Below, in pieces: positions 35,881 to 55,674 of a stretch of 64,000 nucleotides of DNA (position 1 is the first letter of the stretch; every line of letters begins with the position of its first letter). The DNA is from Glycomyces terrestris. Its GTDB lineage: Bacteria; Actinomycetota; Actinomycetes; Mycobacteriales; Micromonosporaceae. The notes under the pieces are model-generated. The model had not been told where the DNA came from. It did not search any database and was given only the letters and a program-made list of their open reading frames with translations. Location of the stretch: positions 62,001 to 126,000 of the forward strand of contig NZ_RSEB01000006.1 of the NCBI RefSeq assembly GCF_003933745.1. Reading direction: 5' to 3'. Both the position numbers and the translations under genes were made by a program.

Positions 35881-35902
35881 GATATGTGATATGTGATATG
35901 TT
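35881..35902 (+). promoter_or_regulatory. Triple GATATGT direct repeat, candidate GntR operator
   Basis: Three exact head-to-tail heptamers GATATGT at 35881, 35888 and 35895, followed by TAC. Aligned as left arm, centre and right arm, 35888-35902 matches 12 of 15 positions of the perfect palindrome AATATGTGACATATT at 47897. It is 107 bases before the first ABC-transporter gene. Confidence 0.6.
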
Positions 35903-36008
35903 ACTGCGAACCGGCGCCCCGAGCGTCGGCCAGACGGCTCCCACGGCGGCCCGCCCCCGGGCCCGCGGAGCGGTCGATCGGCGCGAACAACCGAAAAGGA
36001 AATCCCCC

Positions 36009-37691
36009 ATGCTGAAGAAGCTCACGCGCGCACCGGCGGTCCTCGTCGCCGCGGCGCTGCTCCTCACCGGCTGCAACGGCCAGAACGACGCCGGCGGCGC
36101 GGCCGGCGACGACCCGGTCTCCGGCGGGACCATGCGCATGCTCCAGAACGCCGACTTCTCCTACCTCGACCCGGCCCGGGGCTGGGACGGCGGCGTCAAC
36201 GCCTTCTACCGCCTCGTCTACCGCGGCCTCACCATGCAGGCCGCCGGCGACGCCGAGGACCCGAACGCGATCGTCCCCGACCTGGCCGAGAGCCTCGGCA
36301 CCGCCTCAGAGGACGGTCTCACCTGGACCTACACCCTCAAGGACGGCCTGAAGTTCGACAACGGCGACCCCATCACCTCCGCCGAACTCGAATTCGGCAT
36401 CTCGCGCGCCTGGGACCCGGAGATCGGCATCGGCTCCCCGTGGCTGCGCAACACGATCGAGGCCCCCGCCGACTACGCCGGCCCCTACCAGTCCGGCGAC
36501 CACCCCGGGATCGAGACGCCCGACGAGAAGACCATCGTCTTCCACCTCATCGCGCCCTTCCCCGAGTTCGACTCCGTGCTCGCGCAGCCGAACGCGGTGC
36601 CCTTCCCGGTCGGCTCCGGCGCCGGCGACGAGTTCATCAACGACATCATCGCCTCCGGCCCCTACACGCTCGAGACCTACACGCCCGGCAGCCTCATCAA
36701 GCTGGTGCGCAACGAGCACTGGGACCCCGACACCGACGACGTGCGCAAGGCCTACCCCGACGCGTGGGAGTTCGAGATCGGCCTCGACGGCGCCACCATC
36801 GACGAGCGCCTCATGGCCGGCCAGGGCGCCGACGCCAACGCGATCTCCGGGCGCGTCCAGCCCGCCACCCTGGCCCGGCTCCAAGCGCCCGACCTGGCCG
36901 AGCGGGTCGAGACCGCCGACGCCTACTGCACCACCTACATGGGCATGAACACCACCAAGGCCCCGTTCGACAAGGTCGAGGTGCGGCAGGCGATGAACTA
37001 CGCCATCGACCGCGCCTCCCTCCAGACGGCCTCCGGCGGCAGCCAGCTCGCCGACCCCGCCACCACCATCACCCCGCCGTCCGTCAACGGCCACAAGGAC
37101 TTCGACCTCTACCCGAGCGAAGGCAACGCCGGCGACCCCGAGAAGGCCCTGGAGCTCCTCGCGTCCGTCGGCCTCCAGGACGGCTTCTCGTTCACCCTCG
37201 ACATCCGCTCGCAGCCGACCATGCAGGCGCAGGCCGAGTCCATCCAGCAGGCGCTCGCGAAGATCAACGTCGAGGTCGAGCTGAACGTCATCGACACCTC
37301 CACGTACTACGAGACGATCGGCACGCCCTCGCAGCAGTCCGACGCGGCCATCACCGGCTGGTGCCCCGACTGGGCCTCCAGCGCGTCCACGATGGTCCCG
37401 CCGCTGGTCGACGGCCGCCTCATCACCGACAAGGGCAACAACAACCTCGCCCAGATCGACGACCCGGGCATCAACGCCCGCATCGACGAGATCAAGGCCA
37501 TGACCGACCTCGACGCCGCGAACGTCGAGTGGGGCGAGTTCGACGAGGAGGTCATGGCGCTCGCGCCGATGGCCCCGCTGCTGTGGGAGAAGGGCGTGTT
37601 CCTGCCCGGCGAGAACGTCGCGAACTACATCCCGAACACCAGCATGACCGACCTGACGATCATCGGGCTCAAGGACCCGTCCGCGGGCTGA
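36009..37691 (+). CDS. Peptide ABC transporter substrate-binding lipoprotein
   Basis: A 560-residue family 5 (DppA/OppA-type) binding protein with lipobox LLLTGCNG. It has typical segments: DFSYLDPARGWDGG, WTYTLKDGLKFDNGDPITSAEL, SGPYTLETYTPG. It captures oligopeptides outside the membrane. The ATG at 36009 follows AAAAGGAAAT. It is the first gene of a nine-gene run (binding protein, two permeases, two ATPases, two prolyl peptidases, GH127, then GntR) aimed, I infer, at hydroxyproline-rich glycopeptides. Confidence 0.92.
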   Translation: MLKKLTRAPAVLVAAALLLTGCNGQNDAGGAAGDDPVSGGTMRMLQNADFSYLDPARGWDGGVNAFYRLVYRGLTMQAAGDAEDPNAIVPDLAESLGTASEDGLTWTYTLKDGLKFDNGDPITSAELEFGISRAWDPEIGIGSPWLRNTIEAPADYAGPYQSGDHPGIETPDEKTIVFHLIAPFPEFDSVLAQPNAVPFPVGSGAGDEFINDIIASGPYTLETYTPGSLIKLVRNEHWDPDTDDVRKAYPDAWEFEIGLDGATIDERLMAGQGADANAISGRVQPATLARLQAPDLAERVETADAYCTTYMGMNTTKAPFDKVEVRQAMNYAIDRASLQTASGGSQLADPATTITPPSVNGHKDFDLYPSEGNAGDPEKALELLASVGLQDGFSFTLDIRSQPTMQAQAESIQQALAKINVEVELNVIDTSTYYETIGTPSQQSDAAITGWCPDWASSASTMVPPLVDGRLITDKGNNNLAQIDDPGINARIDEIKAMTDLDAANVEWGEFDEEVMALAPMAPLLWEKGVFLPGENVANYIPNTSMTDLTIIGLKDPSAG

Positions 37692-37696
37692 CACCG

Positions 37697-38671
37697 ATGA
37701 CCTTCACTCCGACAGAACTCGAAGCTGAAGGCGCGGCGGGCGGCGAGCCGACCGGCGATCCCGCGTCGGCTCGCCCGCCCCGCTCCGGGCGGCGCCTCGC
37801 CCGCGCCTTCCTCCGCGACCGCGCCGCGGTCGCGTGCAGCGCCTACATCCTCGTCGTCGTCCTGATGGCCCTCGCCGCGCCGCTCCTGGTCGAGCTCAGC
37901 GGGCATGGCCCCCTGGAGTTCGACCAGGCCGCCGTCGACTCCGACCTCGGCGGCCTCCCCATCGGCTGGGGCGGCGGCATCGGCGCCGACCACTGGTTCG
38001 GCGTCGAACCCGGCAACGGCCGCGACATCTTCGCCCGGATCGTCTACGGCGCCAGGGTGTCCATGACGATCGCGCTCCTCGCCACCGCGCTCACCAGCGT
38101 CCTCGGCGTCGTCTTCGGACTCGTCGCCGGCTACTTCGGCGGACGCGTCGACATGGTGATCTCGCGCGTCATGGAGTTCCTGATGGCCTTCCCGGCCCTC
38201 ATCTTCATGATCGCCGTCCTCTCGGCCCTCCCGGCCGAGAACCGCCAGGCCCTGCTGGTCGTCGTCATCTCCTTCTTCGGCTGGCCCTACCTGGCCCGGA
38301 TCGTGCGCGGCCAGACCATGACGCTCAAGCAGCGCGAGTTCGTCGAGTCCGCGAAGGCGTCGGGCGCCTCCAGCGCCCAGATCATCTTCAAGGAGATCCT
38401 CCCCAACCTCTCCTCCACGATCATCGTCATGACCACCCTCGCGGTGCCCGGCTACGTCGGCACCGAGGCCGGACTGTCCTTTCTGGGCGTCGGCGTCGTC
38501 CCCCCGACGCCCTCCTGGGGCCAGATGATCGCCTCCTCCGTGCCCTGGTACGCCGTCGACCCCGCCTACTTCCTGTTCCCGGGCGCGTTCCTGTTCCTGC
38601 TCGTGCTCTCGTTCACCGTCCTCGGCGACCGCATCAAGAAGATCGCCGAATCCGGGGAGGCCCGCTCGTGA
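37697..38671 (+). CDS. Peptide ABC transporter permease (DppC type)
   Basis: A 324-residue inner-membrane permease. Residues 1-35 are a cytoplasmic leader, then about six helices. The DppC marker segments FGVEPGNGRDIFARIVYGAR and the EAA loop (EFVESAKASGASSAQIIFKEILPN) contact the ATPases. Five bases separate it from the binding-protein stop. Its stop overlaps the next GTG. Confidence 0.92.
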   Translation: MTFTPTELEAEGAAGGEPTGDPASARPPRSGRRLARAFLRDRAAVACSAYILVVVLMALAAPLLVELSGHGPLEFDQAAVDSDLGGLPIGWGGGIGADHWFGVEPGNGRDIFARIVYGARVSMTIALLATALTSVLGVVFGLVAGYFGGRVDMVISRVMEFLMAFPALIFMIAVLSALPAENRQALLVVVISFFGWPYLARIVRGQTMTLKQREFVESAKASGASSAQIIFKEILPNLSSTIIVMTTLAVPGYVGTEAGLSFLGVGVVPPTPSWGQMIASSVPWYAVDPAYFLFPGAFLFLLVLSFTVLGDRIKKIAESGEARS

Positions 38672-39666
38672 TCCGCTTCCTCGTGAACCGCCTCCTCGGC
38701 ATGGCCGTCGTCCTGCTCCTGGTGTGCCTGTTCACCTACGTGATCTTCTTCGTCCTCTCGCCCGATCCGGCCGTGCAGATCTGCGGCAAGAACTGCACCC
38801 CTGAGGCCATCGACCGCATCCGCGCCAACCTCGGCCTCGACGAGCCCTTCCGGACCCAGTTCTGGACGTTCCTCACCGGCCTGTTCGCCGGCCGCGCCTA
38901 CGGGACGGGCGCCAACGCGATCGAATGCGCCGCACCGTGCCTCGGCTACTCCTTCCAGACCAGCCAGCCGGTCACCGACATGATCCTCCAGCGCCTCCCC
39001 GTCTCCGCCACCGTCGCCGTCGGCGCCGCCGTCCTATGGCTCCTCGCCGGGGTCGCCGCCGGACTCCTCAGCGCCGTCAAGGAAGGGCGGTTCGCCGACC
39101 GGTTCATCGCCGGCCTCACCCTCACCGGCATGTCCGTCCCCAACTACGTCCTGGCGCTCTCGCTCCAGTTCCTCCTCGTCGTCACCCTCGGCTGGCTCCC
39201 CTTCCCGCAGGCCGTCCCCTTCGCGGAGGACCCCGGGCAGTGGTTCCTCAACTTCCTCATGCCCTGGACCGTCCTCTCCATCGGCGCCGCGGCCGTCTAC
39301 ACCAGACTCACGCGCGCGAACGTCATCGAGACCCTCCAGGAGAACTACGTGCGCACCGCCCGCGCCAAAGGACTCAGCCCCGGCCTCGTCTGGCGCCGCC
39401 ACGCCCTGCGCCCGGCCCTGACCCCCATCGTCACCATCTTCGGCATGGACTTCGCCGGCCTCCTCGGCGGCGCCCTCATCACCGAGACCGTGTTCGGCCT
39501 CAACGGCGTCGGCAAACTCGCCGCCGACTCCATCACCAAGAACGACCAGCCCGTCATCATGGGTGTCACGCTCCTCGCGGCGTTCCTCGTCGTCGTCGGC
39601 AACATGGTCGTCGACCTGCTGTACACCGCCATCGACCCGCGCGTGCGAGTGGGGAGCGCGACATGA
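38668..39666 (+). CDS. Peptide ABC transporter permease (DppB type)
   Basis: A 332-residue permease with the DppB N-terminus (IRFLVNRLLGMAVVLLLVCL), a periplasmic loop with four Cys (ICGKNC, ECAAPC) and an EAA loop (NYVRTARAKGLSPGLVWRRHALRPAL). The gene order C then B is reversed relative to E. coli dpp. The GTG start overlaps the previous stop. Confidence 0.92.
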   Translation: MIRFLVNRLLGMAVVLLLVCLFTYVIFFVLSPDPAVQICGKNCTPEAIDRIRANLGLDEPFRTQFWTFLTGLFAGRAYGTGANAIECAAPCLGYSFQTSQPVTDMILQRLPVSATVAVGAAVLWLLAGVAAGLLSAVKEGRFADRFIAGLTLTGMSVPNYVLALSLQFLLVVTLGWLPFPQAVPFAEDPGQWFLNFLMPWTVLSIGAAAVYTRLTRANVIETLQENYVRTARAKGLSPGLVWRRHALRPALTPIVTIFGMDFAGLLGGALITETVFGLNGVGKLAADSITKNDQPVIMGVTLLAAFLVVVGNMVVDLLYTAIDPRVRVGSAT

Positions 39667-40505
39667 CCGACCAGCGACCGCTCCTGCGCGTCCGCGACCT
39701 CACCGTCGGCTTCACCACGGCCGCAGGACGAGTCGAGGTCGTCAAGCGCCTCGGCTTCGACCTCGCCCGCGGCGGCGCCCTCGGCATCGTCGGCGAGTCC
39801 GGCTCCGGGAAGTCCATGACCAGCCTCGCCATCATGGGCCTGCTCCCCAAGGGCGCCGAGCGCACCGGCTCCATCGAACTCGACGGCACCGAGCTCACCA
39901 CCCTGCGCGAACGCCAGATGCAGGCCGTCCGCGGCGACCGCATCGCCATGGTCTTCCAGGACCCGCTGTCCTCGCTCAACCCGTACTACACCGTCGGCAC
40001 CCAGATCGCCGAGGCCTACCGCGCGCACCGCACCGGCGTCACCCGCCGCCAGGCCCGCAAGGTCGCGATCGAGGCCATGGAACGCGTCCACATCAAGGAC
40101 GCCGCCCGCCGCGTCGACCACTACCCGCACCAGTTCTCCGGCGGCATGCGCCAGCGCGTCATGATCGCCATGACCCTGAGCATGGAACCCGACCTCATCA
40201 TCGCCGACGAGCCCACCACCGCCCTCGACGTCACCGTCCAGGCCCAGATCCTCGACCTCCTCGCCGAGATCCGCCGCGACACCGGCGCCGGCCTCATCCT
40301 CATCACCCACGACCTCGCCGTCGTCTCCGAAGTGGCCGACCACATCGTCGTCATGCGCGAAGGCGACCTCGTCGAACAGGGCACCGCCGAACAGGTCTTC
40401 AGCGACCCCCGGGCCGACTACACCCGCATGCTCCTCGACGCCGTCCCCCGCATCGACGACGAGATCGGCCTGCTCCGCACCACCGCGACCGAGGAGCCCC
40501 GATGA
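39663..40505 (+). CDS. Peptide ABC transporter ATPase (DppD type)
   Basis: A 280-residue ATPase: Walker [11 protein letters not shown]-loop [11 protein letters not shown], signature FSGGMRQR, Walker [13 protein letters not shown] and switch His in LITHDLAVV. It ends soon after the ATPase domain and lacks the usual long C-terminal Cys-rich tail of DppD. Four-base overlaps join it to both neighbours. Confidence 0.92.
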
Positions 40506-41359
40506 CCGCACCCCTGCTCCGCGCCACCGGCCTCGTCAAGGAGTTCACCGTCCGCGGCACCGGCCTCCTCGGCCGCGCCGCCCGGTTCCGCGCCGTCGAC
40601 GACGTCTCCCTCGACGTGCACGCCGGCGAGACCCTCGCCCTCGTCGGCGAGTCCGGCTCCGGCAAGTCCACCACCGCGCGCCTCATCGCCCGCCTCATCG
40701 ACACCACCAGCGGCACCATCGAGTTCGCCGGCCGCGACGTCCACGCCCTCACCGGCAAGGACCTCCACGCCTACCGCGGCGACGTCCAGGTCGTCTTCCA
40801 GGACCCCTACTCCTCCCTGAACCCCAAGCACACCGTCGAGCGCATCGTCACCGCCCCGCTCGTCTACCAGAAGCGCCCGATTCCCGGCGGCGCCCGCGCC
40901 TTCACCCGGGAGCTCATGGAGCGCGTCGGCCTCGACCCCGACCACTCCGGCCGCTTCCCCGCCCAGTTCTCCGGCGGCCAGGCCCAGCGCATCGGCATCG
41001 CCCGCGCGCTGGCCGTCTCCCCGAAGCTCATCATCGCCGACGAGGCGGTCTCGGCCCTCGACGTCTCCGTGCAGGCCCAGGTGATCAACCTGCTGCGCCG
41101 CCTCCAGGACGAGGAGGGCTTCAGCTACCTGTTCATCGCCCACGACCTCGCCGTGGTGCGCCAGATCGCCCACCGCGTCGCCGTCATGAACGCCGGCCGC
41201 ATCGTCGAGTCCGGCGACCGCGACCAGGTCTTCGGCGACCCGCAGGACCCCTACACCCGCAGGCTGCTCGCGGCCGTCCCGCGCATCCGGCCAGAATGGG
41301 ACGCCGCGAGGCGCCGCAACGAGCGCGCCCGCCGAACCGTAGAGGAGGCCGCCCGATGA
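40502..41359 (+). CDS. Peptide ABC transporter ATPase (DppF type)
   Basis: A 285-residue ATPase: [42 protein letters not shown] and FIAHDLAVV. Walker B carries ADEAVSALD where most have DEPxSALD; the Glu is intact. It pairs with the preceding ATPase as the motor of the importer. Confidence 0.92.
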
Positions 41360-42657
41360 ACACCGCCCCGAACCCGCTCACGTATTCGATGCCCGGCATG
41401 CGCGTCAGCGAGCGCCACGTGCGCGTCCCGCTCGACTGGGACGACCCCGCCCGCGGCGAGATCGAGGTGTTCGTGCGCGAACTGGTCGACCCCGACCGCC
41501 GCGACGCCGACCTCCCGCTCCTCACCTACCTCCAAGGCGGCCCCGGCGGCGCGAACCCGCGCCCCCTCAAGGCCGACGGCTGGATCGAGGAGGCCCTCGC
41601 CGACTACCGGATCGTCCTGGTCGACCAGCGCGGCACCGGCCGCAGCACCCCCGTCGACGCGCAGATCGTCGCCGCGCTCGGCGACGGCGAGGCCGGCGCC
41701 GACTACCTCGCCTGCTTCCGCGCCGACTCGATCGTGCGCGACCTCGAACACGTCCGCACCACCGTCTACAACGGACGGAAATGGACGACGCTGGCGCAGT
41801 CCTACGGCGGCTGGCTCACCCTCGCCTACCTCTCCCGCGCCCCCGAAGCCCTCAGCGCCGCATACGTGTGCGGCGGCATCCCCGGCCTCCCCATGAGCGC
41901 CGACGAGGTCTACCGCCGCACCTTCGACCGCGTCGCCGCCAAGACCGCCGAGTACTACCGCCGCTACCCCCAGGACGCCGCCCGCGTCGCCGCGATCGCC
42001 GACCACCTCGCCGCCGCGCCCGTACGCCTGCCCGACGGCGACCTCCTCACCGTCCGCCGCTTCCAGACCCTCGGCATCGACTTCGGCATGAAACCCGGCC
42101 TCGAACGCATGCACTGGCTCGTCGAACACGCCTTCGTCCAGCAGGGCCGCCTCTCCGAAGGCTTCCTCGCCGACGTCCTCGCCCGCACCTCCTCCGCCGC
42201 CAACCCCCTCTTCTGGACCCTCCAGGAGTCCATCTACGGCGACGGCCACAACGGTCCCACCGCCTGGGCCGCCCAGCGCGAACGCGACCGCCGCCCCGAG
42301 TTCGGCGAGGACCGCCGGCCCCTCCCGTTCACCGGCGAGATGGCCTTCCCCTGGATGTTCGACGAGATCCGGCTCCTGCGCGGCTTCAAACCCGCCGTCC
42401 ACGCCCTCGCCGAACGCCGCGAATGGAGCCCCATCCTCGACCCGGACCGCCTGGCCGCCAACGAGGTCCCCCTCGCCGCCGCCGTCTACTTCGACGACAT
42501 GTTCGTCGACGCCGGCCTGCAACTGGACACCCTCGACCGCATCGGCAACGCCCAGGCCTGGGTCACCAACGAGTTCGAACACGACGGCATCGGATCGGGC
42601 AGGGTCCTCACCCGCCTGCGCGACCTGGTCCGCGACCGAGGAGGAGAACGGCGATGA
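41356..42657 (+). CDS. Proline iminopeptidase-like alpha/beta hydrolase (S33)
   Basis: A 433-residue S33-family hydrolase: oxyanion segment QGGPGGANP, VDQRGTGRS and the nucleophile elbow AQSYGGW. It has no signal peptide, so it acts inside the cell. Members remove N-terminal proline from peptides. Overlap with the transporter ATPase gene (ATGA) ties peptide uptake to prolyl-peptide cleavage. Hydroxyproline as the P1 residue is inferred from the locus. Confidence 0.87.
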   Translation: MNTAPNPLTYSMPGMRVSERHVRVPLDWDDPARGEIEVFVRELVDPDRRDADLPLLTYLQGGPGGANPRPLKADGWIEEALADYRIVLVDQRGTGRSTPVDAQIVAALGDGEAGADYLACFRADSIVRDLEHVRTTVYNGRKWTTLAQSYGGWLTLAYLSRAPEALSAAYVCGGIPGLPMSADEVYRRTFDRVAAKTAEYYRRYPQDAARVAAIADHLAAAPVRLPDGDLLTVRRFQTLGIDFGMKPGLERMHWLVEHAFVQQGRLSEGFLADVLARTSSAANPLFWTLQESIYGDGHNGPTAWAAQRERDRRPEFGEDRRPLPFTGEMAFPWMFDEIRLLRGFKPAVHALAERREWSPILDPDRLAANEVPLAAAVYFDDMFVDAGLQLDTLDRIGNAQAWVTNEFEHDGIGSGRVLTRLRDLVRDRGGERR

Positions 42658-44069
42658 CCGACACCCGCCCGCCCTACGCCGGCACCCGCTACCCGCGGCT
42701 CGCCGAGATCCCCGCGTTCACCGAGCACATCGCGACGGGCTGGAGCACCGCGCCCGTCCCCGCGACCCCCGTCCCCGGCGCGCCCGAGGCCGCCGCCGCC
42801 CACCGCGACCGCCTCTCCGAACGCCTGCCCGGCCAGGCGATCGTCGTCGCCTCCGGCACCGCCCGCGTCCGCAACGACGACAACGACTACCCCTTCCGCG
42901 CCGACAGCGACTTCACCTGGCTCACCGGCTGCCAGGTCGAAGGCGCCGTCCTCGTCATGACCCCGCGCCCCGGCGGCCACGACGCCCGCCTCTTCATGCC
43001 CCCGCCCTTCCGCCCCGGCGACACCGGCTTCTTCGCGAACGCCGCCCACGGCGAACTCTGGGTCGGCGCCTCCCCGGGCCTGCCCGAATGGTCCGACGCC
43101 CTCCAACTCCCCGTCGCACCCGCCGCCGACCTCACCGCGCCGCCCGGCGCCCTCACCACCGGCTCGGCCGGCGACGACCTCACCGCCCGGCACGGCCTCG
43201 AACCCTCTCCGCTCCTCGAACGCCACCTCGCCGCCCTGCGGATGATCAAGGACCCCTGGGAGATCGAGCAGCTGCGCGACGCCGTCGACGCCACCGTCGC
43301 GGGCTTCGCCGCCGTCGCCGCCGAGATCCCGCGCGCCGTCAGCCACGGCCTCGGCGAACGCTGGCTCCAAGGCACCTTCGACCGCCACGCCCGCACCTTC
43401 GGCAACGGCACCGGCTACACCACCATCGTCGGCTCCGGACCGCACGCCCCCACCCTCCACTGGGTCCGCTGCGACGGCCCCGTCCTCCCCGACGAGGTCC
43501 TCCTCCTCGACATGGGCGTCGAGGCCCGCAGCCTCTACACCGCCGACGTCACCCGCACCCTCCCCGCCTCCGGAACCTTCAGCGGCCCCCAGCGCGACGT
43601 CCACGACCTCGTCGAACGCGCCCACCGCGCCGGCCTCGCGCAGATCCGACCCGGCGTCCAGTACCTCGACTTCCACTACGCCGCAATGGAAGTCATCGCA
43701 ACCGGCCTCCACGACTGGGGCCTGCTCCCCGTCTCCGTTGACGAAGCGCTCTCCCCGCACGGCCAGCACCACCGCCGCTACCTCGCCTGCGGCATCGGCC
43801 ACCACCTCGGCCTCGACGTCCACGACTGCTCCGCAGCCGAGTACGAGGACTACATGGGCGCCGACCTCCAGCCCGGCGTCGTCATGACCGTCGAACCCGG
43901 CCTCTACTTCCACGCCAACGACCTCACCGTGCCGCCCGAACTGCGCGGCATCGGCGTGCGCCTCGAAGACGACGTCCTCGTCACCCCCACCGGCGCCGAC
44001 GTCCTCTCCGCCGCCCTCCCGATCGACGCCGCCGGCATCGAGACCTGGACGAAGGCGCAGCAGTCGTGA
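42654..44069 (+). CDS. Xaa-Pro aminopeptidase (M24B)
   Basis: A 471-residue cytoplasmic metallopeptidase. An N-terminal creatinase-like domain (DNDYPFRADSDFTWLTG) precedes the pita-bread catalytic domain with ligands in LLDMGV, YTADVTR, GIGHHLGLDVHD, TVEPGLYF and VRLEDDVLV. It releases the residue before proline. Placed between an iminopeptidase and a beta-arabinofuranosidase, it should help take imported Pro/Hyp-rich peptides down to single residues. Confidence 0.92.
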   Translation: MTDTRPPYAGTRYPRLAEIPAFTEHIATGWSTAPVPATPVPGAPEAAAAHRDRLSERLPGQAIVVASGTARVRNDDNDYPFRADSDFTWLTGCQVEGAVLVMTPRPGGHDARLFMPPPFRPGDTGFFANAAHGELWVGASPGLPEWSDALQLPVAPAADLTAPPGALTTGSAGDDLTARHGLEPSPLLERHLAALRMIKDPWEIEQLRDAVDATVAGFAAVAAEIPRAVSHGLGERWLQGTFDRHARTFGNGTGYTTIVGSGPHAPTLHWVRCDGPVLPDEVLLLDMGVEARSLYTADVTRTLPASGTFSGPQRDVHDLVERAHRAGLAQIRPGVQYLDFHYAAMEVIATGLHDWGLLPVSVDEALSPHGQHHRRYLACGIGHHLGLDVHDCSAAEYEDYMGADLQPGVVMTVEPGLYFHANDLTVPPELRGIGVRLEDDVLVTPTGADVLSAALPIDAAGIETWTKAQQS

Positions 44070-48118: not shown

Positions 48119-49729
48119 GTGAACGCAGACGTCGTCGTCATCGGCGCCGGGATCGTCGGTGCGGCGTGCGCTCGCGCGCTGGCGCGCGCAGGGCTGAGCG
48201 TCATCGTCGTCGACTGCGGCGCCCCCGCCAGCGCCACCAGCGCCCGCGGCGAAGGCAACCTCCTCGTCTCCGACAAGGCCCCTGGCCCCGAACTCGACCT
48301 CGCCCTCCTCGCCTCCGCCCACTGGCCCCTCCTGGCGGCCGAACTCGCCGACGAGCTCAGCGGTGACCAGGGCTCGTCTCCTCACGGCGGCTTTCCCGAC
48401 ATCGAGTATGACCGCAAGGGCGGCATCGTCGTCGCCACCACCGATGCCGGGGCCGAGCCGCTGCGGGCGTTTGCGCGCAGCCAGGCCGCGGTCGGGGTCG
48501 AGATCGAGCAACTGACCCCCGCCGATGCGCTTTCCCTTGAGCCTCATCTCAACCCGGCGATCACGGCCGCGGTCCACTACCCGCAGGACGCCCAGCTCCA
48601 ACCGGTCGTCGCAACCGAGGCGCTCCTCGCCTCCGCGCGCCGAGCCGGAGTCAGGGTGCTCGCGAACCAGGAGGTCGTCGGGGCCGTGCGCTCCGGCGGC
48701 CGGATCACCGGCGTCCGCACGACCTCGGGAACCATCGGTGCCGGCGCGGTCGTCGTGGCGGCCGGGCCCTGGTCCGGCCAGGTGGCCGCGGTGCTCGGGG
48801 CCGACCTGCCCGTGCGGCCCCGCCGCGGGATGGTCCTGGTGACCGCGCGGATGCCGCAGCGCGTGTTCCACAAGGTCTACGACGGCGACTACTTCGGTGC
48901 GACCCAGTCGGCCGACGCCGACCTCCAGACCTCGAGCGTGGTCGAGTCGACCCCCGGCGGGACCGTCCTCATCGGATCAAGTCGTCAGCAGATCGGCTTC
49001 GACGACCGGCTCCGGGTGGAGGTCCTCGCGCAGGTCGCCCGGCGCGCCCTGCGCCTGTTCCCGTTCCTCGAAGGCACGCCCGTGATCCGCGCCTACGGCG
49101 GCTTCCGCCCCTACGTGCCCGACCACCTCCCGGTCATCGGCGAGGACCACCGCGACCCCGGACTCTGGTACGCCACAGGCCACGAAGGCGCCGGCATCGG
49201 CCTCGCGGGGGTCACCGGCGACCTCCTGTGCGCCCAGCTCACCGGGACCACACCTGCGCTCGACCCGGCCCCATTTCTGCCCTCGCGCCCCTCCCTCGCC
49301 GCACACTTGAAGACCGACGACGCCGGGCCCGAGGCTGACAGGTCCACGCCGCCCCGGCCCCAGGTCGAAGCGTCCGCGCAAAGGCGGCCCGAAGCCGACA
49401 GCCTCGCGCGATCCCGGCCCGAGACCGGAGCGTTCGTGCAAACGCGGCCTGAGGCCGACAGCCCCGCGCGATACCGGCCGGAGGCGGCGGATGCCCGCTC
49501 CAGGTCCGAGATGGCGGCCGACGCGCTGAGCCGAGGCACCGTCGCCGACTCGAGAAGCGGTGGCGCTGGAATCGAGACCGACGTCCCCGCGCCGCCCCTG
49601 CCCGGGCCCGAAGCGTCCGTGCAGACGCGGCCCGAGGCCGACAGATCTACGTCCTACCGGCCGGATGCGGCGGATGGGCGGTCCACTGCCGTGAGGTCGG
49701 CCGACGCGCTGAACGGAGGCACCGCATGA
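48119..49729 (+). CDS. FAD-dependent D-hydroxyproline dehydrogenase, catalytic (DadA-like) subunit
   Basis: A 536-residue DAO-family flavoprotein. The FAD motif is VVVIGAGIVGAACARALARAG; later parts include VVVAAGPWSGQ and RAYGGFRPYVPDHLPVIG. Residues 1-395 match the usual length; the remaining 140 are a low-complexity tail of PEAD(R/S) repeats. With the small 2Fe-2S and large FAD subunits that follow, it fits the heterotrimeric cis-4-hydroxy-D-proline dehydrogenase of bacteria. The GTG start has GAGAAGGAGG upstream. A sarcosine/glycine or other D-amino acid dehydrogenase is the alternative. Confidence 0.82.
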   Translation: MNADVVVIGAGIVGAACARALARAGLSVIVVDCGAPASATSARGEGNLLVSDKAPGPELDLALLASAHWPLLAAELADELSGDQGSSPHGGFPDIEYDRKGGIVVATTDAGAEPLRAFARSQAAVGVEIEQLTPADALSLEPHLNPAITAAVHYPQDAQLQPVVATEALLASARRAGVRVLANQEVVGAVRSGGRITGVRTTSGTIGAGAVVVAAGPWSGQVAAVLGADLPVRPRRGMVLVTARMPQRVFHKVYDGDYFGATQSADADLQTSSVVESTPGGTVLIGSSRQQIGFDDRLRVEVLAQVARRALRLFPFLEGTPVIRAYGGFRPYVPDHLPVIGEDHRDPGLWYATGHEGAGIGLAGVTGDLLCAQLTGTTPALDPAPFLPSRPSLAAHLKTDDAGPEADRSTPPRPQVEASAQRRPEADSLARSRPETGAFVQTRPEADSPARYRPEAADARSRSEMAADALSRGTVADSRSGGAGIETDVPAPPLPGPEASVQTRPEADRSTSYRPDAADGRSTAVRSADALNGGTA

Positions 49730-49730
49730 G
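49320..49730 (+). repeat. In-frame repeats forming the dehydrogenase tail
   Basis: Recurrent (R)PEADS/R units, and two larger copies of the true gene end: RPEAADARS…ADALSRGT (about 49478) and RPDAADGRS…ADALNGGTA-stop (about 49660). In the first copy GCACCGTCGCCG replaces the GCACCGCATGAG junction with the next gene. So the unit again spans a gene boundary, here absorbed in frame. Confidence 0.7.
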
Positions 49731-50286
49731 CGGCATCGTCCCCTGGCAGACCGATCCGATCCGCCCGGACCGGCCACAGAGCCTTCACATCACTGTGGAT
49801 GGAGCGCGAGTCGAAGGGCTGCAAGGCCAGTCGATCGCCGGGGTCCTCCTCACTCAGGACCGCACCACGTGGCGCACGACCGTCGCGGGCCGCCCCCGCG
49901 GTGTGTTCTGCGGCATCGGCGTGTGCTTCGACTGCATCGCCACCGTCAACGGCGAATCCGACGTGCGCCTGTGCATGCGCCGCGCCCATGACGGCGACGT
50001 CGTCACGACCCAGGACGACACCATCCAGCACGATGCGCACCCGCAGGAGGGACGCTCCGGCCCAGCCCACGGGCCGGGCTTCGGCTCCCGCCTCGCCGTC
50101 GATTCGGGCCCCGACCGTGGCCCGGGTCCCGACCCCGCGCGAAACCTGAGTCGTGATCCCGGTGCCGGCCCCGAACCCGGTGCCGCGCCGGACGCGGCGG
50201 GTGCGCCTGAGCGCCGGGGCGACGGCTCTGAAAGCGATGCAGCGCAAGGCTGCGCCACCCGTGCACCCGAGGCGGAGGCCCGATGA
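49726..50286 (+). CDS. 2Fe-2S subunit of D-hydroxyproline dehydrogenase
   Basis: A 186-residue protein. Residues 20-100 form a small ferredoxin-like 2Fe-2S domain (FCGIGVCFDCIATVNG and a later LCMRRA Cys), as in the HcnA/SoxD-like subunits of amino-acid dehydrogenase complexes. Residues 105-186 are a Pro/Gly/Asp/Ala-rich tail not found in such subunits, which are about 100 residues. Four-base overlaps link it to both neighbours. Confidence 0.82.
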   Translation: MSGIVPWQTDPIRPDRPQSLHITVDGARVEGLQGQSIAGVLLTQDRTTWRTTVAGRPRGVFCGIGVCFDCIATVNGESDVRLCMRRAHDGDVVTTQDDTIQHDAHPQEGRSGPAHGPGFGSRLAVDSGPDRGPGPDPARNLSRDPGAGPEPGAAPDAAGAPERRGDGSESDAAQGCATRAPEAEAR

Positions 50287-52220
50287 AGCATGTTCTCGTG
50301 ATCGGCGCCGGTCCGGCCGGGCTCTCGGCTGCGGTCGCCGCGCGCGATGCCGGCGCCCGGGTGACCCTTCTCGACTCCGGCGACGGCCTCGGCGGCCAAT
50401 ACTGGCGGCACCTGCCGCCGCAGCGCCCGGCCCGCCGCGAAGCCCGACTCCACCACGGCTGGTCGGCCTTCGAACGCCTCCGCGCCCGCCTCGCCGATGA
50501 CGCCATCGAAGTCATCACCGAAGCCCAAGTCTGGGCCATCGAGCGATACGGCACCGCAGACGGCTCCGACGCGACCAGCGCCACCGGCCGCCGTCCGCGC
50601 GGCAGTGCGGAACGGCCGGAAGTCGAGTCCGCCGTCCTTGCCAGCGGTGGCGGGGTCGACCCCGACCTCCTTGGGCACGATGCCGCGCTCGGCGGGTTTG
50701 GCGGCCGTGCCGGTCGCTCGGACAGCGGCGCGAACCGACCTGGAGTCGAGTCCGCCGCGCTTACAAGCGGTGGCGGGGCCGAACCCGGTCGCCTCGGGCG
50801 CGGCTCGGCGCTCGGCGGGTTTGACGGCCGTGCCGATCGTTCGGACAGTGGCGCGAACAGAGCTGGAGTCGAGTCCGCCGCCGTTTCCAGCGGTGGCGGG
50901 GTCGGCCCCGATCGCCTTGGGCGCGGCGCGGTGCTCGGCGGGTTCGGCCGTGCTGATCGCATGGGCAGCGGCGCGAATCGACCTGGAGTCGAGTCCGCCG
51001 CCCGCGCCAGCGGCGGCGAAGCCGCCCCCGACCTCCTTGCGCCGGGCGCGGTTCCCAGCACGCCCGACGACCGCTCCGAGTCGCAAGCCGACGTCGTCGT
51101 GCGCGTCCTCATCGGCCCCGCCGATTCCGGCGGCCGGGAGGCTCGCACCTTTACCGCCGACGCCATCGTGCTCGCCACCGGCGCTCACGACCGCACGCTT
51201 CCGTTCCCCGGCTGGCACCTGCCCGGCGTCTTCTCCGCCGGTGCCGCCCAGGCGCTCGCTAAGGGCGAGCGCATCGCCGTGGGCCGTCGCGCCGTGGTCG
51301 CCGGGGCTGGGCCGTTCCTGTTGCCCGTGGCCCAGTCGCTTACGGCCGCAGGTGCACACGTCGTCGGCGTGTTCGAGGCCGCGCGGCCCGCCGCGCTCGC
51401 GCGCGGTTGGCTTCCCGAGCCCTGGCGGCTCCTCGCCGCCGCCCGCAAGGGCACCGAACTGGCGGGATATGTCACACACCACCTGGTCCGGCGCGTGCCC
51501 TACCGCCTCGGCCGGGCCGTCGTCGAGGCCCGCGGGGACGGGCGCGTCGAAGAGGTCGTGACCGCCCGGCTCGGCCCCGACTGGGCCCCGGTCCCCGGGA
51601 CCGAGCGGACCCTCGCCGCGGACGCCGTCTGCGTCTCGCACGGCTTCACGCCCCGCCTCGAACTGCCCATCGCCGCCGGCTGCGCGATCGGCCCCGACCG
51701 GTTCGTCACCGTCGACGGCGACCAGCGCACCTCCGTCCCCGGCGTCTACGCCGCGGGGGAGATCACCGGCATCGGCGGCGTCGACGCCGCCCTCGTCGAA
51801 GGCCGCATCGCCGGCCGCAGCGCCGCCGGCGGCGAGCCCGACCCCGCCGACCGGCGGCGCCGGCGCGCCACCACCGACTTCGCACGGCGCATCGACGCCG
51901 CCCACGGCATCCGGCCGGGGTGGACGTCGTGGCTGCGCGACGACACCGTCGTCTGCCGCTGCGAGGAGGTCCCGTACGGGCGCCTCCGCGACACGGCCGA
52001 AGCGACGGACCAGACCTCGCTGCGCTCCGTGAAGCTCACGACCCGGGCGGGCCTCGGCATCTGCCAGGCCCGCATGTGCGGGCGCACCGTGGAGGACCTC
52101 ACCGGAGCGGGCGCCGCCCGCGCCGAGGACACCACCGACCGGCGGCCCCTGGCCGCACCCATCCGGCTCGGCGACCTCGCCGGCCTCGACACCACTTGTG
52201 GGAAGGACACCCATGTCTGA
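50283..52220 (+). CDS. FAD/NAD(P) subunit of D-hydroxyproline dehydrogenase with BFD-type iron-sulfur domain
   Basis: A 645-residue flavoprotein: VLVIGAGPAGLSAAVAARDAG at the start, IVLATGAHDRTLPFPGWHLPG in the middle, GVYAAGEITGIGGVDAALVEG later. A C-terminal Cys-rich domain (VCRCEEVPYGRL…GLGICQARMCGRTV) is of the BFD/[2Fe-2S] type. HcnB/SoxA-like subunits are about 450-480 residues; the excess is a four-unit repeat insertion at residues about 113-265. The insertion sits between two strands of the nucleotide fold. It passes electrons from the catalytic flavin onward. Confidence 0.85.
   Translation: MKHVLVIGAGPAGLSAAVAARDAGARVTLLDSGDGLGGQYWRHLPPQRPARREARLHHGWSAFERLRARLADDAIEVITEAQVWAIERYGTADGSDATSATGRRPRGSAERPEVESAVLASGGGVDPDLLGHDAALGGFGGRAGRSDSGANRPGVESAALTSGGGAEPGRLGRGSALGGFDGRADRSDSGANRAGVESAAVSSGGGVGPDRLGRGAVLGGFGRADRMGSGANRPGVESAARASGGEAAPDLLAPGAVPSTPDDRSESQADVVVRVLIGPADSGGREARTFTADAIVLATGAHDRTLPFPGWHLPGVFSAGAAQALAKGERIAVGRRAVVAGAGPFLLPVAQSLTAAGAHVVGVFEAARPAALARGWLPEPWRLLAAARKGTELAGYVTHHLVRRVPYRLGRAVVEARGDGRVEEVVTARLGPDWAPVPGTERTLAADAVCVSHGFTPRLELPIAAGCAIGPDRFVTVDGDQRTSVPGVYAAGEITGIGGVDAALVEGRIAGRSAAGGEPDPADRRRRRATTDFARRIDAAHGIRPGWTSWLRDDTVVCRCEEVPYGRLRDTAEATDQTSLRSVKLTTRAGLGICQARMCGRTVEDLTGAGAARAEDTTDRRPLAAPIRLGDLAGLDTTCGKDTHV
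50619..51100 (+). repeat. In-frame 123-bp tandem repeats inserted in a flavoprotein gene
   Basis: GAGTCGAGTCCGCC recurs with units starting at 50619, 50742, 50865 and 50985 (123, 123, 120 bp). Each encodes about 41 residues: VESAxxxSGGGxxP..LG…LGGFxGRAxRSDSGAN. All periods are multiples of three. Divergence grows toward the 3' end. Confidence 0.9.
51466..51472. promoter_or_regulatory. Intragenic GATATGT half-site
   Basis: GATATGT followed by CACA in the flavoprotein gene equals the heptamer repeated at 35881. It is encoded with TAT and ACA codons, both uncommon nearby. Only the left arm is good, so this is the weakest of the candidate sites. Confidence 0.2.
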
Positions 52221-53130
52221 CAAGAACTTCGACCTCGGAGGCGTCATCGTCGCCACGACCCTGGCGTTCAAGGAGGACCCGAAGGCGCCGGGCGGTCTCG
52301 CGGTCGACTACGACAGGTTCGCCGAGCACTGCGACTTCCTCATCCGCAACGGCTGCCGCGGCGTCGGCCCCAACGGGTCGCTCGGCGAATACTCCTCCCT
52401 CACCGACGAGGAGCGCCGCACGGTCGTGCAGGTCGCCGTCGAGACCGTCGGCGACCGCGGCCTCGTCGTCGCCGGCGTCCACGGCGTCGGCTGGCACCAG
52501 GCCGTCCAGTGGGCCGAGCACGCCAAAGAGGACGGCGCCGACGGCGTCCTCCTCCTGCCGCCCACCATCTACCGCGCCAACCGCGGCGAGGTCCTGGAGC
52601 ACTACGCCAAGGTGAACGAGGTCGGCCTGCCGATCATGATGTACAACAACCCGATCGACACCAAGGTCGACCTCGTGCCCGACCTCGTCGCCGAACTCTA
52701 CGAGCTCGAGCACGTCGTCGCGATCAAGGAGTTCTCCACCGACGTCCGCCGCGTCCTGGAGATCAAGGAGCGCTGCGGCATCGACGTCATCGCCGGCGCC
52801 GACGACCTCCTCTTCGAATCCCTCGTCGTCGGGGCCACCGGCTGGTTCGCCGGCTACCCCAACGCCTTCCCGAAGGAGGCCGTCGAGATCTACACCCTCG
52901 TCCAGGAAGGCCGCGTCGAGGAGGCCCGCCACCTCTACAGCGGCCTCGTGCCGGTGTTCCGCTGGGACTCCAAGACCGAGTTCGTGCAGGCCATCAAGCT
53001 CTCCATGGACATCGCCGGCCACAGCTACGGCGGCCCCACCCGCCCCCCGCGCGGCCCGCTCTCCGAGGCCCAGCGCGAGCAGGTCGCGCGCGACACCCGC
53101 CGCGCCCTCGACTTCGCGGCCGCCCGCTAG
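52213..53130 (+). CDS. DapA-family deaminase, probable 1-pyrroline-4-hydroxy-2-carboxylate deaminase
   Basis: A 305-residue class I aldolase-fold protein: GPNGSLGEYSSL (in place of GTTGE), Tyr in MMYNNPID and the Schiff-base Lys in VVAIKEFSTD. In hydroxyproline catabolism this family deaminates the dehydrogenase product to 2-oxoglutarate semialdehyde. The dehydrogenase before it and epimerase and aldehyde dehydrogenase after it support that call over dihydrodipicolinate synthase. It overlaps the upstream gene by eight bases. Confidence 0.88.
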   Translation: MSDKNFDLGGVIVATTLAFKEDPKAPGGLAVDYDRFAEHCDFLIRNGCRGVGPNGSLGEYSSLTDEERRTVVQVAVETVGDRGLVVAGVHGVGWHQAVQWAEHAKEDGADGVLLLPPTIYRANRGEVLEHYAKVNEVGLPIMMYNNPIDTKVDLVPDLVAELYELEHVVAIKEFSTDVRRVLEIKERCGIDVIAGADDLLFESLVVGATGWFAGYPNAFPKEAVEIYTLVQEGRVEEARHLYSGLVPVFRWDSKTEFVQAIKLSMDIAGHSYGGPTRPPRGPLSEAQREQVARDTRRALDFAAAR

Positions 53131-53185: not shown

Positions 53186-54187
53186 ATGAGAACGAACCGG
53201 CTCGTCAGCGCCGTCGACTCGCACACCGAGGGCATGCCCACCCGCGTCGTCACCGGCGGCGTCGGCGTCATCCCCGGCGCGACCATGAACGACAAGCGCC
53301 TCCACTTCATCGAGCACCTGGACGACCTGCGGCTGTTCCTCATGAACGAGCCGCGCGGCCACGCGGCGATGAGCGGCGCGATCCTCCAGCCCTCCACCCG
53401 CCCCGACTGCGACTGGGGCGTGGTCTACATCGAGGTGTCCGGGTGCCTGCCCATGTGCGGGCACGGCACCATCGGCGTCGCCACCGTCCTGGTCGAGACC
53501 GGCATGGTCGACGTGGTCGAGCCCGTCACCGAGATCCGCCTCGACACGCCCGCCGGGCCCGTCACCGCCCGCGTCGCCGTCAAGGACGGCCGCGCCGAGT
53601 CGGTCACCATCGAGAACGTGCTGAGCTACGTGGACGCCCTCGACACCAGCGTCGAGGTCCCCGGCCTCGGCACCGTCCCCTACTCGATGGCCTTCGGCGG
53701 CAACTTCTACGCCATGGTCCACCTCGACGACGTCGGCCTCCCCTTCGACCGCGCCCGCCAGCAGGACATCCTCGCCGCCGGTCTGTCCATCATGGACGCC
53801 ATCAATGCGACCGCCGCCCCCGTGCACCCGCACATCGCCGGACTCGACCACTGCCACCACGTCGAGTTCATCGCCCCCGGCTCCGACGCGAAGCACTCCC
53901 GCCACGCCATGGCCATCCACCCCGGCTGGTTCGACCGATCCCCGTGCGGCACCGGCACCTCCGCGCGCATGGCCGAGCTGTGGGCCCGCGGCGAGCTCGA
54001 CCTCCACACCGACTTCGTGAACGAGTCGTTCATCGGCTCCCGCTTCGTCGGCCGCCTCGTCGCCGAGACCGCCGTCGGCGACCGGCCCGCCGTCGTCCCG
54101 ACCGTGACCGGCCGCGCCTGGATCACCGGCACCGCCCAGTACACGCTCGACCCCACCGACCCGTTCCCCACCGGCTTCCAGTTCTAG
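53186..54187 (+). CDS. lhpA: 4-hydroxyproline 2-epimerase (proline racemase family)
   Basis: A 333-residue proline-racemase-fold enzyme with DSHTEGMPTRVV near the start and both catalytic cysteines: MCGHGTIG near residue 91 and SPCGTGTSARMA near 252. Having Cys at both sites marks an epimerase/racemase rather than the Cys/Thr trans-3-hydroxyproline dehydratase. It turns trans-4-hydroxy-L-proline into cis-4-hydroxy-D-proline, the substrate of the dehydrogenase encoded upstream. GGAAGGA precedes the ATG. Confidence 0.92.
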   Translation: MRTNRLVSAVDSHTEGMPTRVVTGGVGVIPGATMNDKRLHFIEHLDDLRLFLMNEPRGHAAMSGAILQPSTRPDCDWGVVYIEVSGCLPMCGHGTIGVATVLVETGMVDVVEPVTEIRLDTPAGPVTARVAVKDGRAESVTIENVLSYVDALDTSVEVPGLGTVPYSMAFGGNFYAMVHLDDVGLPFDRARQQDILAAGLSIMDAINATAAPVHPHIAGLDHCHHVEFIAPGSDAKHSRHAMAIHPGWFDRSPCGTGTSARMAELWARGELDLHTDFVNESFIGSRFVGRLVAETAVGDRPAVVPTVTGRAWITGTAQYTLDPTDPFPTGFQF

Positions 54188-54195
54188 GAGCGCAC

Positions 54196-55674
54196 ATGGA
54201 CCTGCAACCGATCGACCCCGTCGCCGAGACCGCCGACGCGGCCGCGCACGCGCTCGCCGACGTCGCGCCCGCCGTGCGCGCCGCGGCCCTCGTCGCCTTC
54301 GCCGACGCCCTCACCGCGCACGCCGACGAGCTCGTGGCCCTCGCCATGGAGGAGACCGGCCTCGCCGAGGCCCGCCTGCGCGGGGAGCTCAAGCGCACCG
54401 CCGTCCAGCTGCGCCTGTTCGCCGAGACCGTCCTCGACGGCGCCTATCTCGACGTCCGCATCGACCGCGCCGACCCCGACTTCGCGCTCGGGCCCCGCCC
54501 CGACGTGCGCAGCGGCAACGAGCCGATCGGGCCCGTCCTCAACTTCGCGGCCGGCAACTTCCCGTTCGCGTTCTCCGTCGCCGGGGGCGACACCGCCGCC
54601 GCGCTGGCCGCCGGCAACCCCGTCGTCGTCAAGGCCCACCCCGGCCACCCGCGCCTCGCCGCCCGCACCGCCGAGATCGGCGCCGCGGCCCTCGAAGGCG
54701 CCGGACTCCCTGCGGGCACACTGCAACTCGTGGAAGGCGTCGAGACCGGTGTCGCGATGCTCAAGCACCCGCTCATCAAGGCCGCCTCCTTCACCGGGTC
54801 CCTCAAAGGAGGCCGCCACCTCGCCGACATCGCCGCCGCCCGGCCCGCGCCCATCCCGTTCTACGGCGAGCTCGGCAGCCTCAACCCCGTCTTCGCCACC
54901 GCCGCCGCGATCGCCGCCCGCGGCCCCGAGTTCGCCTCCGGCCTCGCCGCCAGCGTCGGCGGCTCCGCCGGGCAGCTGTGCACCAAGCCCGGCCTCGTGT
55001 TCCTCCCCGCCGGGCACGGCCTCGACGCCGCGATCGCGGCCGCCGCGCAGACCGGGGAGCACCGCATGCTCGACCCGCGCATCGCCGACGGGTACCTGCG
55101 CCGCCGCGAGGCCATCCTCGCCTCCGGCGGCGTCCGCCTCCTCGCCGAGGGCTCGGCCCGCACGGACGCCCGCGCGCAGGGCTGGGTGACCCCCACGATC
55201 GCCGCCCTCGCGCTCGAGGACTTCCGCGCCGAACCCGAGGCGTTCCTCGAGGAGTGCTTCGGCCCCATCGCCCTCCTGGTCGAGACCCCGGCCGGCACCG
55301 ACTACGCCGACCTGCTCGACGAGTTCTTCGAAGGCGAGCTCACCGTCGCCGTCCACCGCGCCGACGGCGACGACGTCTCGCGCCTCGTCCGCGCCGCCGC
55401 CCGCCACGCCGGCCGCGTCCTCTTCGACGGCTGGCCCACCGGCGTCGCCGTCACCCCCGCCATGCAGCACGGCGGCCCCTGGCCCGCGACCACCCTGGGC
55501 GGCACCAGCGTTGGCACGGCCGCCGTCGCCCGCTTCGTGCGCGCCGTCGCCTACCAGAACGCCCCGCAGGACGCCCTCCCGCCGGCGCTGCGCGACGACA
55601 ACCCCTGGGGCGTCCCGCAGCGCATCGCCCCCGCGGGCGAGTCCGCGACCTGGGGTGACCGCGCCCGCGCATGA
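54196..55674 (+). CDS. 2-oxoglutarate semialdehyde dehydrogenase (KGSADH-type ALDH)
   Basis: A 492-residue aldehyde dehydrogenase. NFAAGNFPFAFSVAGGDTAA and the VVVKAHPGHP segment are typical of 2-oxoglutarate semialdehyde dehydrogenases. The nucleophile is in GGSAGQLCTKPG and the general-base Glu in GELGSLNP. It oxidises the deaminase product to 2-oxoglutarate, feeding the TCA cycle. Eight bases separate it from the epimerase gene. Confidence 0.9.
   Translation: MDLQPIDPVAETADAAAHALADVAPAVRAAALVAFADALTAHADELVALAMEETGLAEARLRGELKRTAVQLRLFAETVLDGAYLDVRIDRADPDFALGPRPDVRSGNEPIGPVLNFAAGNFPFAFSVAGGDTAAALAAGNPVVVKAHPGHPRLAARTAEIGAAALEGAGLPAGTLQLVEGVETGVAMLKHPLIKAASFTGSLKGGRHLADIAAARPAPIPFYGELGSLNPVFATAAAIAARGPEFASGLAASVGGSAGQLCTKPGLVFLPAGHGLDAAIAAAAQTGEHRMLDPRIADGYLRRREAILASGGVRLLAEGSARTDARAQGWVTPTIAALALEDFRAEPEAFLEECFGPIALLVETPAGTDYADLLDEFFEGELTVAVHRADGDDVSRLVRAAARHAGRVLFDGWPTGVAVTPAMQHGGPWPATTLGGTSVGTAAVARFVRAVAYQNAPQDALPPALRDDNPWGVPQRIAPAGESATWGDRARA

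Follow-up and report, generated by a model that had tools for sequence, protein, structure and literature searches.

Extensins are a protein-rich component of plant cell walls. In a 64,000-nucleotide stretch of the Glycomyces terrestris genome (hereafter the window), we found a locus of 15 same-direction genes (36009-55674) that probably serves the utilisation of short arabinosylated, hydroxyproline (Hyp)-rich peptides, most plausibly derived from extensins or related plant wall glycoproteins. The Bifidobacterium longum system for the β-arabinooligosaccharides of hydroxyproline-rich glycoproteins (HRGPs), which is described as HypAA, HypBA2, an ATP-binding cassette (ABC) importer and HypBA1 (PMC7263609), resembles what we predict here, as it targets β-L-arabinofuranosides on plant Hyp, and its importer feeds a cytosolic β-L-arabinofuranosidase. 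Nevertheless, this published system takes sugar from extensins by cutting outside the cell. The disaccharide β-Ara2 is released there and imported as a sugar, and neither a peptide importer nor peptidases nor Hyp catabolism belong to the cluster as far as PMC7263609 describes it. The B. longum signature, namely a glycoside hydrolase family 121 (GH121) β-arabinobiosidase and a sugar-type importer, was not found among the domain matches of the 15 genes, whose importer is of the Opp type. The HypR regulon of Streptomyces coelicolor (SCO6289-6294) is similar to the locus by description (PMC6608401), carrying an FCD-GntR regulator, a three-subunit D-Hyp dehydrogenase, a DapA-type deaminase, an epimerase and the motif ATGTCAC. 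In contrast to the G. terrestris locus, the regulon as listed in PMC6608401 lacks a glycosidase, an Opp importer and a prolyl peptidase, contains a putative collagenase, and has its α-ketoglutarate semialdehyde (KGSA) dehydrogenase gene elsewhere. Similarly, the 4-hydroxyproline neighbourhoods described for the proline racemase superfamily place the epimerase gene close to those for DAO, DapA-family and aldehyde dehydrogenase proteins, whereas the word stem "glycosid" is absent from the text of PMC4113996. A preliminary description of the window knew of no single locus joining glycopeptide import, deglycosylation, peptide cleavage and Hyp catabolism. We likewise found the parts but not the combination of importer, peptidases, glycosidase and Hyp pathway in the open-access literature, most subscription papers being outside the search.

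Pfam and NCBIfam scans of the window proteins recovered all genes that the preliminary description had named, in the order it gave. The first eight encode a solute-binding lipoprotein (SBP), two Opp permeases, two Opp ATPases, an α/β hydrolase, an M24 enzyme (a Xaa-Pro aminopeptidase) and a PF07944 glycosidase. They are followed by the genes for an FCD-GntR regulator and for DAO, 2Fe-2S, pyridine-nucleotide oxidoreductase, DapA-family, Cys/Cys proline-racemase-family and aldehyde dehydrogenase proteins. The Opp/Dpp importer set is complete by domains (SBP_bac_5, two permeases, and two ATPases with oligo_HPY), and its ligand is predicted to be a peptide.

Linkage of the genes in related genomes

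We searched 150 genomes of the family with the glycosidase. Besides the window's own genome, 12 carry an orthologue, at 64% identity or more over the catalytic part, and the neighbourhoods of all 12 were examined. The 15 genes occur together in 10 of these 12 relatives, an arrangement far beyond chance, and the co-occurrence of glycosidase, importer and Hyp genes that the preliminary description wished to see compared among actinomycetes is thereby documented. In two genomes (G084 and G006) the order is permuted, with the Hyp operon and the FCD gene first and the importer half second. As the swapped halves are still adjacent, the linkage has outlived rearrangement. Adjacency varies by species, and the Hyp operon does not stand beside the importer half in every one. 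In G098, the FCD and hydrolase genes are separated by a piece of the second ATPase (69% identity; L082 about 7075-7248), likely a scar of importer loss. Three genomes (G058, G078 and G032) have another PF07944 gene, 34% identical to the window glycosidase, ~7-12 kb from the epimerase gene; no importer of the window type was found between the two genes, and we did not count this as a pairing. In G078, an S15-like peptidase gene lies between the Hyp operon and that PF07944 gene (L096 14106-19350), in an otherwise different neighbourhood.

For a wider survey, named genomes were scanned with a 13-sequence alignment of the glycosidase, and the best 80 of 543 confirmed loci were taken. The window glycosidase belongs to a clade of 46 rows (Shimodaira-Hasegawa-like approximate likelihood-ratio test (SH-aLRT) support of 100 in a quick tree), 33 of which are named loci (L101-L121, L123-L125, L130, L133, L135, L141, L143, L145, L146, L151 and L152). 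The remaining 19 of L101-L152, spread over two neighbouring branches, are referred to as the sister group. Both glycosidase trees were built quickly and contain several long branches, and only their main splits are used here; the following gene counts hold within the fetched stretches, several of which end at contig ends. A hydrolase or M24 gene accompanies the glycosidase gene in all 33 clade loci but in none of the 19 sister loci. The same contrast, with no sister locus positive, is seen for the SBP gene (29/33), the FCD gene (27/33), any Hyp gene (21/33) and the epimerase gene (15/33). By a simple hydropathy and motif reading, a leader of the twin-arginine (Tat) type precedes the glycosidase in 18 of the 19 sister loci, the exception (L140) being cut by a contig end, and in 0/33 clade loci; a start codon is present at most 25 codons from the glycosidase domain in 30 of the 33. 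Eighteen clade loci lack a local epimerase gene. A whole-genome search covered 15 of them (L112, L120 and L143 were outside it), and all 15 genomes hold an epimerase-family protein of at least 68% identity. For L118, L119, L121, L135, L141 and L145, the coordinates of this gene are 0.7-3.8 kb past the fetched edge, which suggests the same contig. Second GH127-type genes in L107, L109, L117, L118, L123 and L125 were set aside as weak evidence, because the sister loci L126 and L137 have them too.

The clade adjoins Hyp operons of two lineages. In seven of the eight clade Microbacterium loci (the exception being L130), the glycosidase gene runs on into a Hyp operon whose genes are ordered differently and, other than that for the epimerase, share about 35-53% identity with those of the window; in L115, L116 and L152, the glycosidase stop overlaps the DapA start by 4 bases. 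In the DapA tree, Microbacterium groups with the Hyp operons of further members of the family (support 100/97), and Glycomyces, G084/G006 and Actinoplanes form a separate clade (100/99). The nearest named relatives of the window proteins in both the DapA and glycosidase trees are those of Glycomyces. Either the module would have joined Hyp operons twice, or the adjoining Hyp operon would have been swapped out; under either history, two Hyp operon lineages beside the module point to a functional tie.

The glycosidase, the hydroxyproline enzymes and the operator

The preliminary description placed the glycosidase in GH127. Its membership of the PF07944 clan stood (269.3 bits, cut-off 24.9), whereas the strict GH127 label was dropped in favour of GH146-type, as GH146 references match far better. 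In phmmer comparisons with solved structures, 5opj (1.8e-54) and 8k7y (1e-38) were well ahead of the GH127 structure 4qjy (7e-10, C-terminal part only). We take 5opj and 8k7y to be GH146 structures, the former presumably BT0349. Residues E320, E338, C340, C408 and C409 are invariant across the 13 orthologues. In the GH127/GH146 active site, zinc is held by a Glu and three Cys, with a Cys nucleophile (PMC10850190), and this Glu/Cys3 zinc site is retained in the window glycosidase (E338, C340, C408 and C409). Of the characterised proteins that were compared, the G201 protein at the position expected for BLLJ_0089 (Bll4HypBA1) matches best (470 bits, 44% over 591 amino acids); the 5opj/BT0349 fragment (186 bits) and Bll3HypBA1 (182 bits) are weaker. 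Against the 470 bits for this protein, the window glycosidase scores 52 bits with its own GH127-like paralogue. We take G201 for B. longum JCM 1217, because the crystallised Bll3HypBA1 stretch is present letter for letter, and infer that the protein encoded in L195 is Bll4HypBA1. Like the window glycosidase, it keeps the GH146 Zn/Cys residues; unlike it, it bears a Tat-like leader and belongs to a neighbouring branch, the loci of which are without the importer. Bll4HypBA1 is reported to be active on Araf-β1-linked Hyp, and XeHypBA1, another GH146 enzyme, hydrolyses mainly Araf-β1-Hyp (PMC10850190).

Some further features of the glycosidase are recorded here. Residues about 511-592 (window about 45596-45841) comprise two near-identical adjoining segments (...RKPAW...VTLSLNGEP... 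and ...RVPAW...VTLSLNGKP...), which look like an internal duplication and lie in an insert absent from most orthologues. An AlphaFold model had a mean predicted local distance difference test score (pLDDT) of 64 and was not used for fold search. The same genome has three more PF07944 genes (L001, L002 and L004), which are BT0349-like, Tat-leader with ricin-like repeats, and GH127-like, respectively.

The families of the last six genes match the Hyp pathway of epimerase, three-subunit D-Hyp dehydrogenase, deaminase and KGSA dehydrogenase described for Streptomyces and Pseudomonas (PMC6608401). The probable epimerase has the Cys/Cys catalytic pair attributed to it in the preliminary description (MCGHGT and DRSPCGTG), and its top NCBIfam model is 4-hydroxyproline epimerase NF010578, at 336.7 bits against a cut-off of 376. 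Its discriminating residues, placed by eye on an AsProR alignment, are Ser at site 1, His at site 4 and Ile at site 5. The HypE-type pocket has a non-Phe residue, His, and Cys or Tyr at these sites (PMC4364671), and two of the three residues are HypE-like by this placement. Streptomyces lividans uses trans-4-hydroxy-L-proline and upregulates its corresponding neighbourhood (PMC4113996), and S. coelicolor no longer grows on L-Hyp without its epimerase gene (PMC6608401).

Both halves of the locus are preceded by one type of candidate operator. The 16-base motif ATATGTGAYATRTTAC has exactly two matches in the 5.24-Mb genome (15 contigs), one ahead of the SBP gene and the other ahead of the DAO gene; six places match with up to two mismatches, and the reversed-pattern control matches none. 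All 12 relatives have the operator 5' of the SBP gene (≤3 mismatches), and all 10 relatives having DAO there carry it 5' of the DAO gene (≤2 mismatches); it was not found in six 40-kb module-free comparison regions at ≤4 mismatches. Of 21 further clade loci scanned at ≤3 mismatches, 10 have a site, at least seven of these directly before the SBP gene; none was found in L107, L108 or L113, nor in the 18 sister loci scanned. The reverse strand of the operator contains ATGTCAC, the core bound by HypR; in S. coelicolor, this FCD repressor controls a regulon that L-Hyp induces (PMC6608401). Judging from its family and this operator, the FCD protein is a candidate HypR counterpart, with putative target sites and a putative inducer. 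A similar site at C8:532102 was treated as chance because it is inside an NmrA-like reading frame. Another operator-like sequence is located within the glycosidase coding region (45145-45160); G124 and G139 have a similar site, the other relatives do not, and we leave it uninterpreted. A run of GAAGCG hexamer repeats (window about 47953-48021) separates the operator from the DAO gene.

In extensin, the arabinose on Hyp is accompanied by α-galactose on Ser (PMC13164431), and Ser galactosylation is also described in PMC7933510. A GH36-type α-galactosidase gene was found in 6/33 clade loci (L101, L107, L108, L110, L111 and L112) versus 0/19 sister loci, and these genes fit the Ser-α-Gal of extensin. 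The gene is on the other strand beside the SBP gene in Glycomyces loci, and between the M24 and glycosidase genes in L107 and L108. In G128 (L101), G108 and G142 (L112), the operator falls in the gap common to the GH36 and SBP genes. Pfam PF02065 was checked for L107, G128 and the Bifidobacterium locus L162. In another GH146-type branch, bifidobacteria (L162, L173, L198 and L199) have varying sets of GH36, prolyl aminopeptidase, X-Pro dipeptidyl peptidase, M24 and SBP_5 genes alongside; genome searches of L160 and L173 found no proline-racemase-family gene.

Proposed function and its alternatives

We propose that the Opp-type transporter would import Hyp-containing (glyco)peptides, from which the cytosolic GH146-type enzyme would take β-L-arabinofuranose off Hyp. 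The Xaa-Pro aminopeptidase may then remove residues N-terminal to Pro or Hyp, and the prolyl-aminopeptidase-like hydrolase would subsequently cut off the N-terminal Pro or Hyp. Free trans-4-hydroxy-L-proline would first be epimerised; the three-subunit D-Hyp dehydrogenase would then oxidise the product, and deamination followed by a further oxidation would give 2-oxoglutarate. Both halves would be governed by a HypR-like repressor via one operator type. The window genome encodes arabinose isomerase. The gene families, kept linkage, common operator, leader absence and conserved catalytic residues are seen in the sequence, and the transporter substrate, all enzyme specificities, and the target sites and inducer of the regulator are predictions.

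The preliminary description proposed one locus for glycopeptide uptake, cleavage of sugar and peptide, and burning of Hyp. The comparative evidence supports one functional unit, because the linkage survives rearrangement and recurs with two Hyp operon lineages, the operator is common to both halves, the leaderless glycosidase clade stands beside leader-bearing relatives, and GH36 genes occur in 6/33 clade loci. We infer the uptake of whole glycopeptides from the leaderless glycosidase, the Opp importer and the peptidases. With confidence only slightly better than even, we are inclined to extend the idea to several actinobacterial lineages that would swallow first: they would import intact O-glycopeptides, deglycosylate and degrade them in the cytosol, and burn the Hyp under a Hyp-responsive repressor. 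The leaderless Araf-β-Hyp glycosidase would have come from secreted kin and become bound up with a peptide importer and proline peptidases, and an α-galactosidase may have been recruited in some species for Ser-α-Gal.

A number of observations weigh against this scheme. Extensin arabinose chains are usually 3-4 units long, and a single GH146 enzyme may not strip a whole chain. The reading frame identified as Bll4HypBA1 has a leader, so that deglycosylation can also occur outside the cell. Within the fetched stretches, 12/33 named clade loci lack any Hyp gene. In both G108 and G142, the importer-glycosidase-FCD half has no Hyp enzymes beside it, and an epimerase homologue of about 70% is elsewhere in the genome. 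Conversely, G132, G098 and G067 retain the Hyp operon and hydrolase without importer or glycosidase, and G138 has the Hyp operon, hydrolase and M24 enzyme without the glycosidase. The operator was found in none of the eight Microbacterium clade loci scanned, and the top NCBIfam model of the FCD protein, below its cut-off, is a phosphonate-linked regulator. All four PF02065 genes of the window genome are off the locus contig. Finally, the clade/sister contrasts, with Fisher P values of 1e-14 to 3e-4, compare loci that share ancestry, and the tests are not independent.

The genomes in which the Hyp operon stands with the hydrolase, or with hydrolase and M24 enzyme, would be expected if the importer and peptidases handled bare Pro/Hyp peptides, either of the collagen type or deglycosylated beforehand, and the GH146 enzyme acted on separately imported small β-arabinosides, the locus being a Hyp-peptide scavenger with an accessory glycosidase. 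The S. coelicolor HypR regulon, with its putative collagenase and, as listed in PMC6608401, no glycosidase, agrees with this as well. However, the leaderless clade has a hydrolase or M24 gene in every locus, the window glycosidase start overlaps the M24 stop, and none of the 15 conserved genes belongs to a sugar-type importer. Collagen, in addition, bears no arabinose. We regard scavenging of bare peptides as unlikely, albeit the most serious of the alternatives. SBP_bac_5 proteins bind varied ligands, and if the imported substrates were Hyp-arabinosides, either single glycosylated amino acids or fragments that are very short, with peptide cleavage mainly outside, the glycosidase would need to act on Araf-β-Hyp only. 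It is hard to reconcile this with two proline-peptidase-type enzymes, without an evident leader, in the same overlap chain, or with the nearest SBP structure being an oligopeptide-binding protein, and we consider it improbable. Least credible of all, to the point of being very improbable, is that the glycosidase acts on another plant glycan (terminal β-Araf of arabinan or arabinogalactan) and is beside Hyp genes incidentally. Other GH146 enzymes do work on arabinan or arabinogalactan proteins (PMC10850190), but the genes stay linked despite rearrangement and beside two Hyp operon lineages, the best characterised match compared is an Araf-β1-Hyp enzyme, and the glycosidase has no signal peptide.

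If the locus indeed serves the use of arabinosylated peptides, sugar and peptide alike would provide carbon and nitrogen, with deglycosylation in the cytosol, another HRGP route for root-associated and gut bacteria. The locus would combine an Opp-type importer of O-glycosylated peptides with a complete operon from wall glycoprotein to the tricarboxylic acid cycle, supply a testable glycopeptide importer and Hyp-acting peptidases, and offer a conserved genomic signature for spotting HRGP users.

Gene layout and further observations

Table 1. Genes and candidate operators of the G. terrestris locus, in window coordinates.
Feature	Position	Strand	Evidence or remark
Candidate HypR-type operator ATATGTGATATGTTAC with overlapping partial repeat, 5' of importer operon	35882..35904	+	35889-35904 exact motif match
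SBP_bac_5 solute-binding lipoprotein	36009..37691	+	PF00496 5.7e-73; best solved structure 2wok (oligopeptide-binding) 1.1e-85; lipobox LLLTGC
Opp/Dpp permease C-type (permC)	37697..38671	+	PF00528; top NCBIfam Opp4C, under cut-off
Opp/Dpp permease B-type (permB)	38668..39666	+	PF19300, PF00528
Opp/Dpp ATPase D	39663..40505	+	PF00005, PF08352
Opp/Dpp ATPase F	40502..41359	+	PF00005, PF08352
Prolyl-aminopeptidase-like α/β hydrolase (S33 type), leader not evident	41356..42657	+	PF00561; AQSYGG nucleophile-elbow-like motif
Xaa-Pro aminopeptidase (AMP_N + M24), leader not evident	42654..44069	+	PF00557 4.6e-42, PF05195; top structures aminopeptidase P
GH146-type β-L-arabinofuranosidase (predicted), without signal peptide	44066..46993	+	PF07944 6.8e-80; start overlaps M24 stop
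FCD-GntR regulator, candidate HypR counterpart	47151..47828	+	PF07729, PF00392
Candidate HypR-type operator ATATGTGACATATTAC, 5' of hydroxyproline operon	47895..47913	+	Second exact genomic match
Putative D-hydroxyproline dehydrogenase β-type subunit (DAO)	48119..49729	+	PF01266 9.7e-70; domain set as described for SCO6289-6291 (PMC6608401)
Dehydrogenase γ-type subunit (2Fe-2S, Fer2_4)	49726..50286	+	PF13510 2.5e-21
Dehydrogenase α-type subunit (Pyr_redox_2 + Fer2_BFD)	50283..52220	+	PF07992, PF04324
DapA-family protein, probable pyrroline-4-hydroxy-2-carboxylate deaminase	52213..53130	+	PF00701 9e-49
Probable 4-hydroxyproline 2-epimerase (Cys/Cys proline-racemase family)	53186..54187	+	PF05544 4.5e-125
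Probable 2-oxoglutarate-semialdehyde dehydrogenase (aldehyde dehydrogenase family)	54196..55674	+	PF00171 3.9e-38; nearest structures 3v4c, 1eyy

One chain of four-base overlaps had been reported from the importer to the glycosidase gene. It holds from permC onwards (permC-permB, permB-ATPase D, ATPase D-ATPase F, ATPase F-hydrolase, hydrolase-M24 and M24-glycosidase), whereas the SBP-permC overlap appears only with a CTG/CTA start. The same applies to the overlap between the epimerase and aldehyde dehydrogenase genes; with the next ATG, the two junctions become gaps of 5 and 8 bases, respectively. Four-base overlaps also join the β-type to the γ-type and the γ-type to the α-type dehydrogenase subunit genes, and the last of these overlaps the DapA-family gene by 23 bases (GTG start) or 8 (ATG start). 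Wider gaps separate the DapA-family and epimerase genes (55 bp), the glycosidase and FCD genes (157 bp), and the FCD and DAO genes (290 bp). The SBP more plausibly starts at ATG 36009 than at GTG 35886, given its lipoprotein signal (...LLLTGC).

The hydrolase fell below the cut-off of the prolyl aminopeptidase model TIGR01249 (35.5 bits against 259.75). Its nearest solved structures, 8jgm and 8jgn (AT3g61540; about 1e-95), are its sole strong match, and our literature search turned up nothing on Hyp specificity of AT3g61540. Outside the counted loci, a suggestive row is present in Paenibacillus JJ-223 (L158 436-11764), consisting of two proline-racemase-family genes and genes for DapA-family, aldehyde dehydrogenase, FAD oxidoreductase, secreted LamG and PF07944 proteins; the secreted LamG protein has a weak matrixin match.

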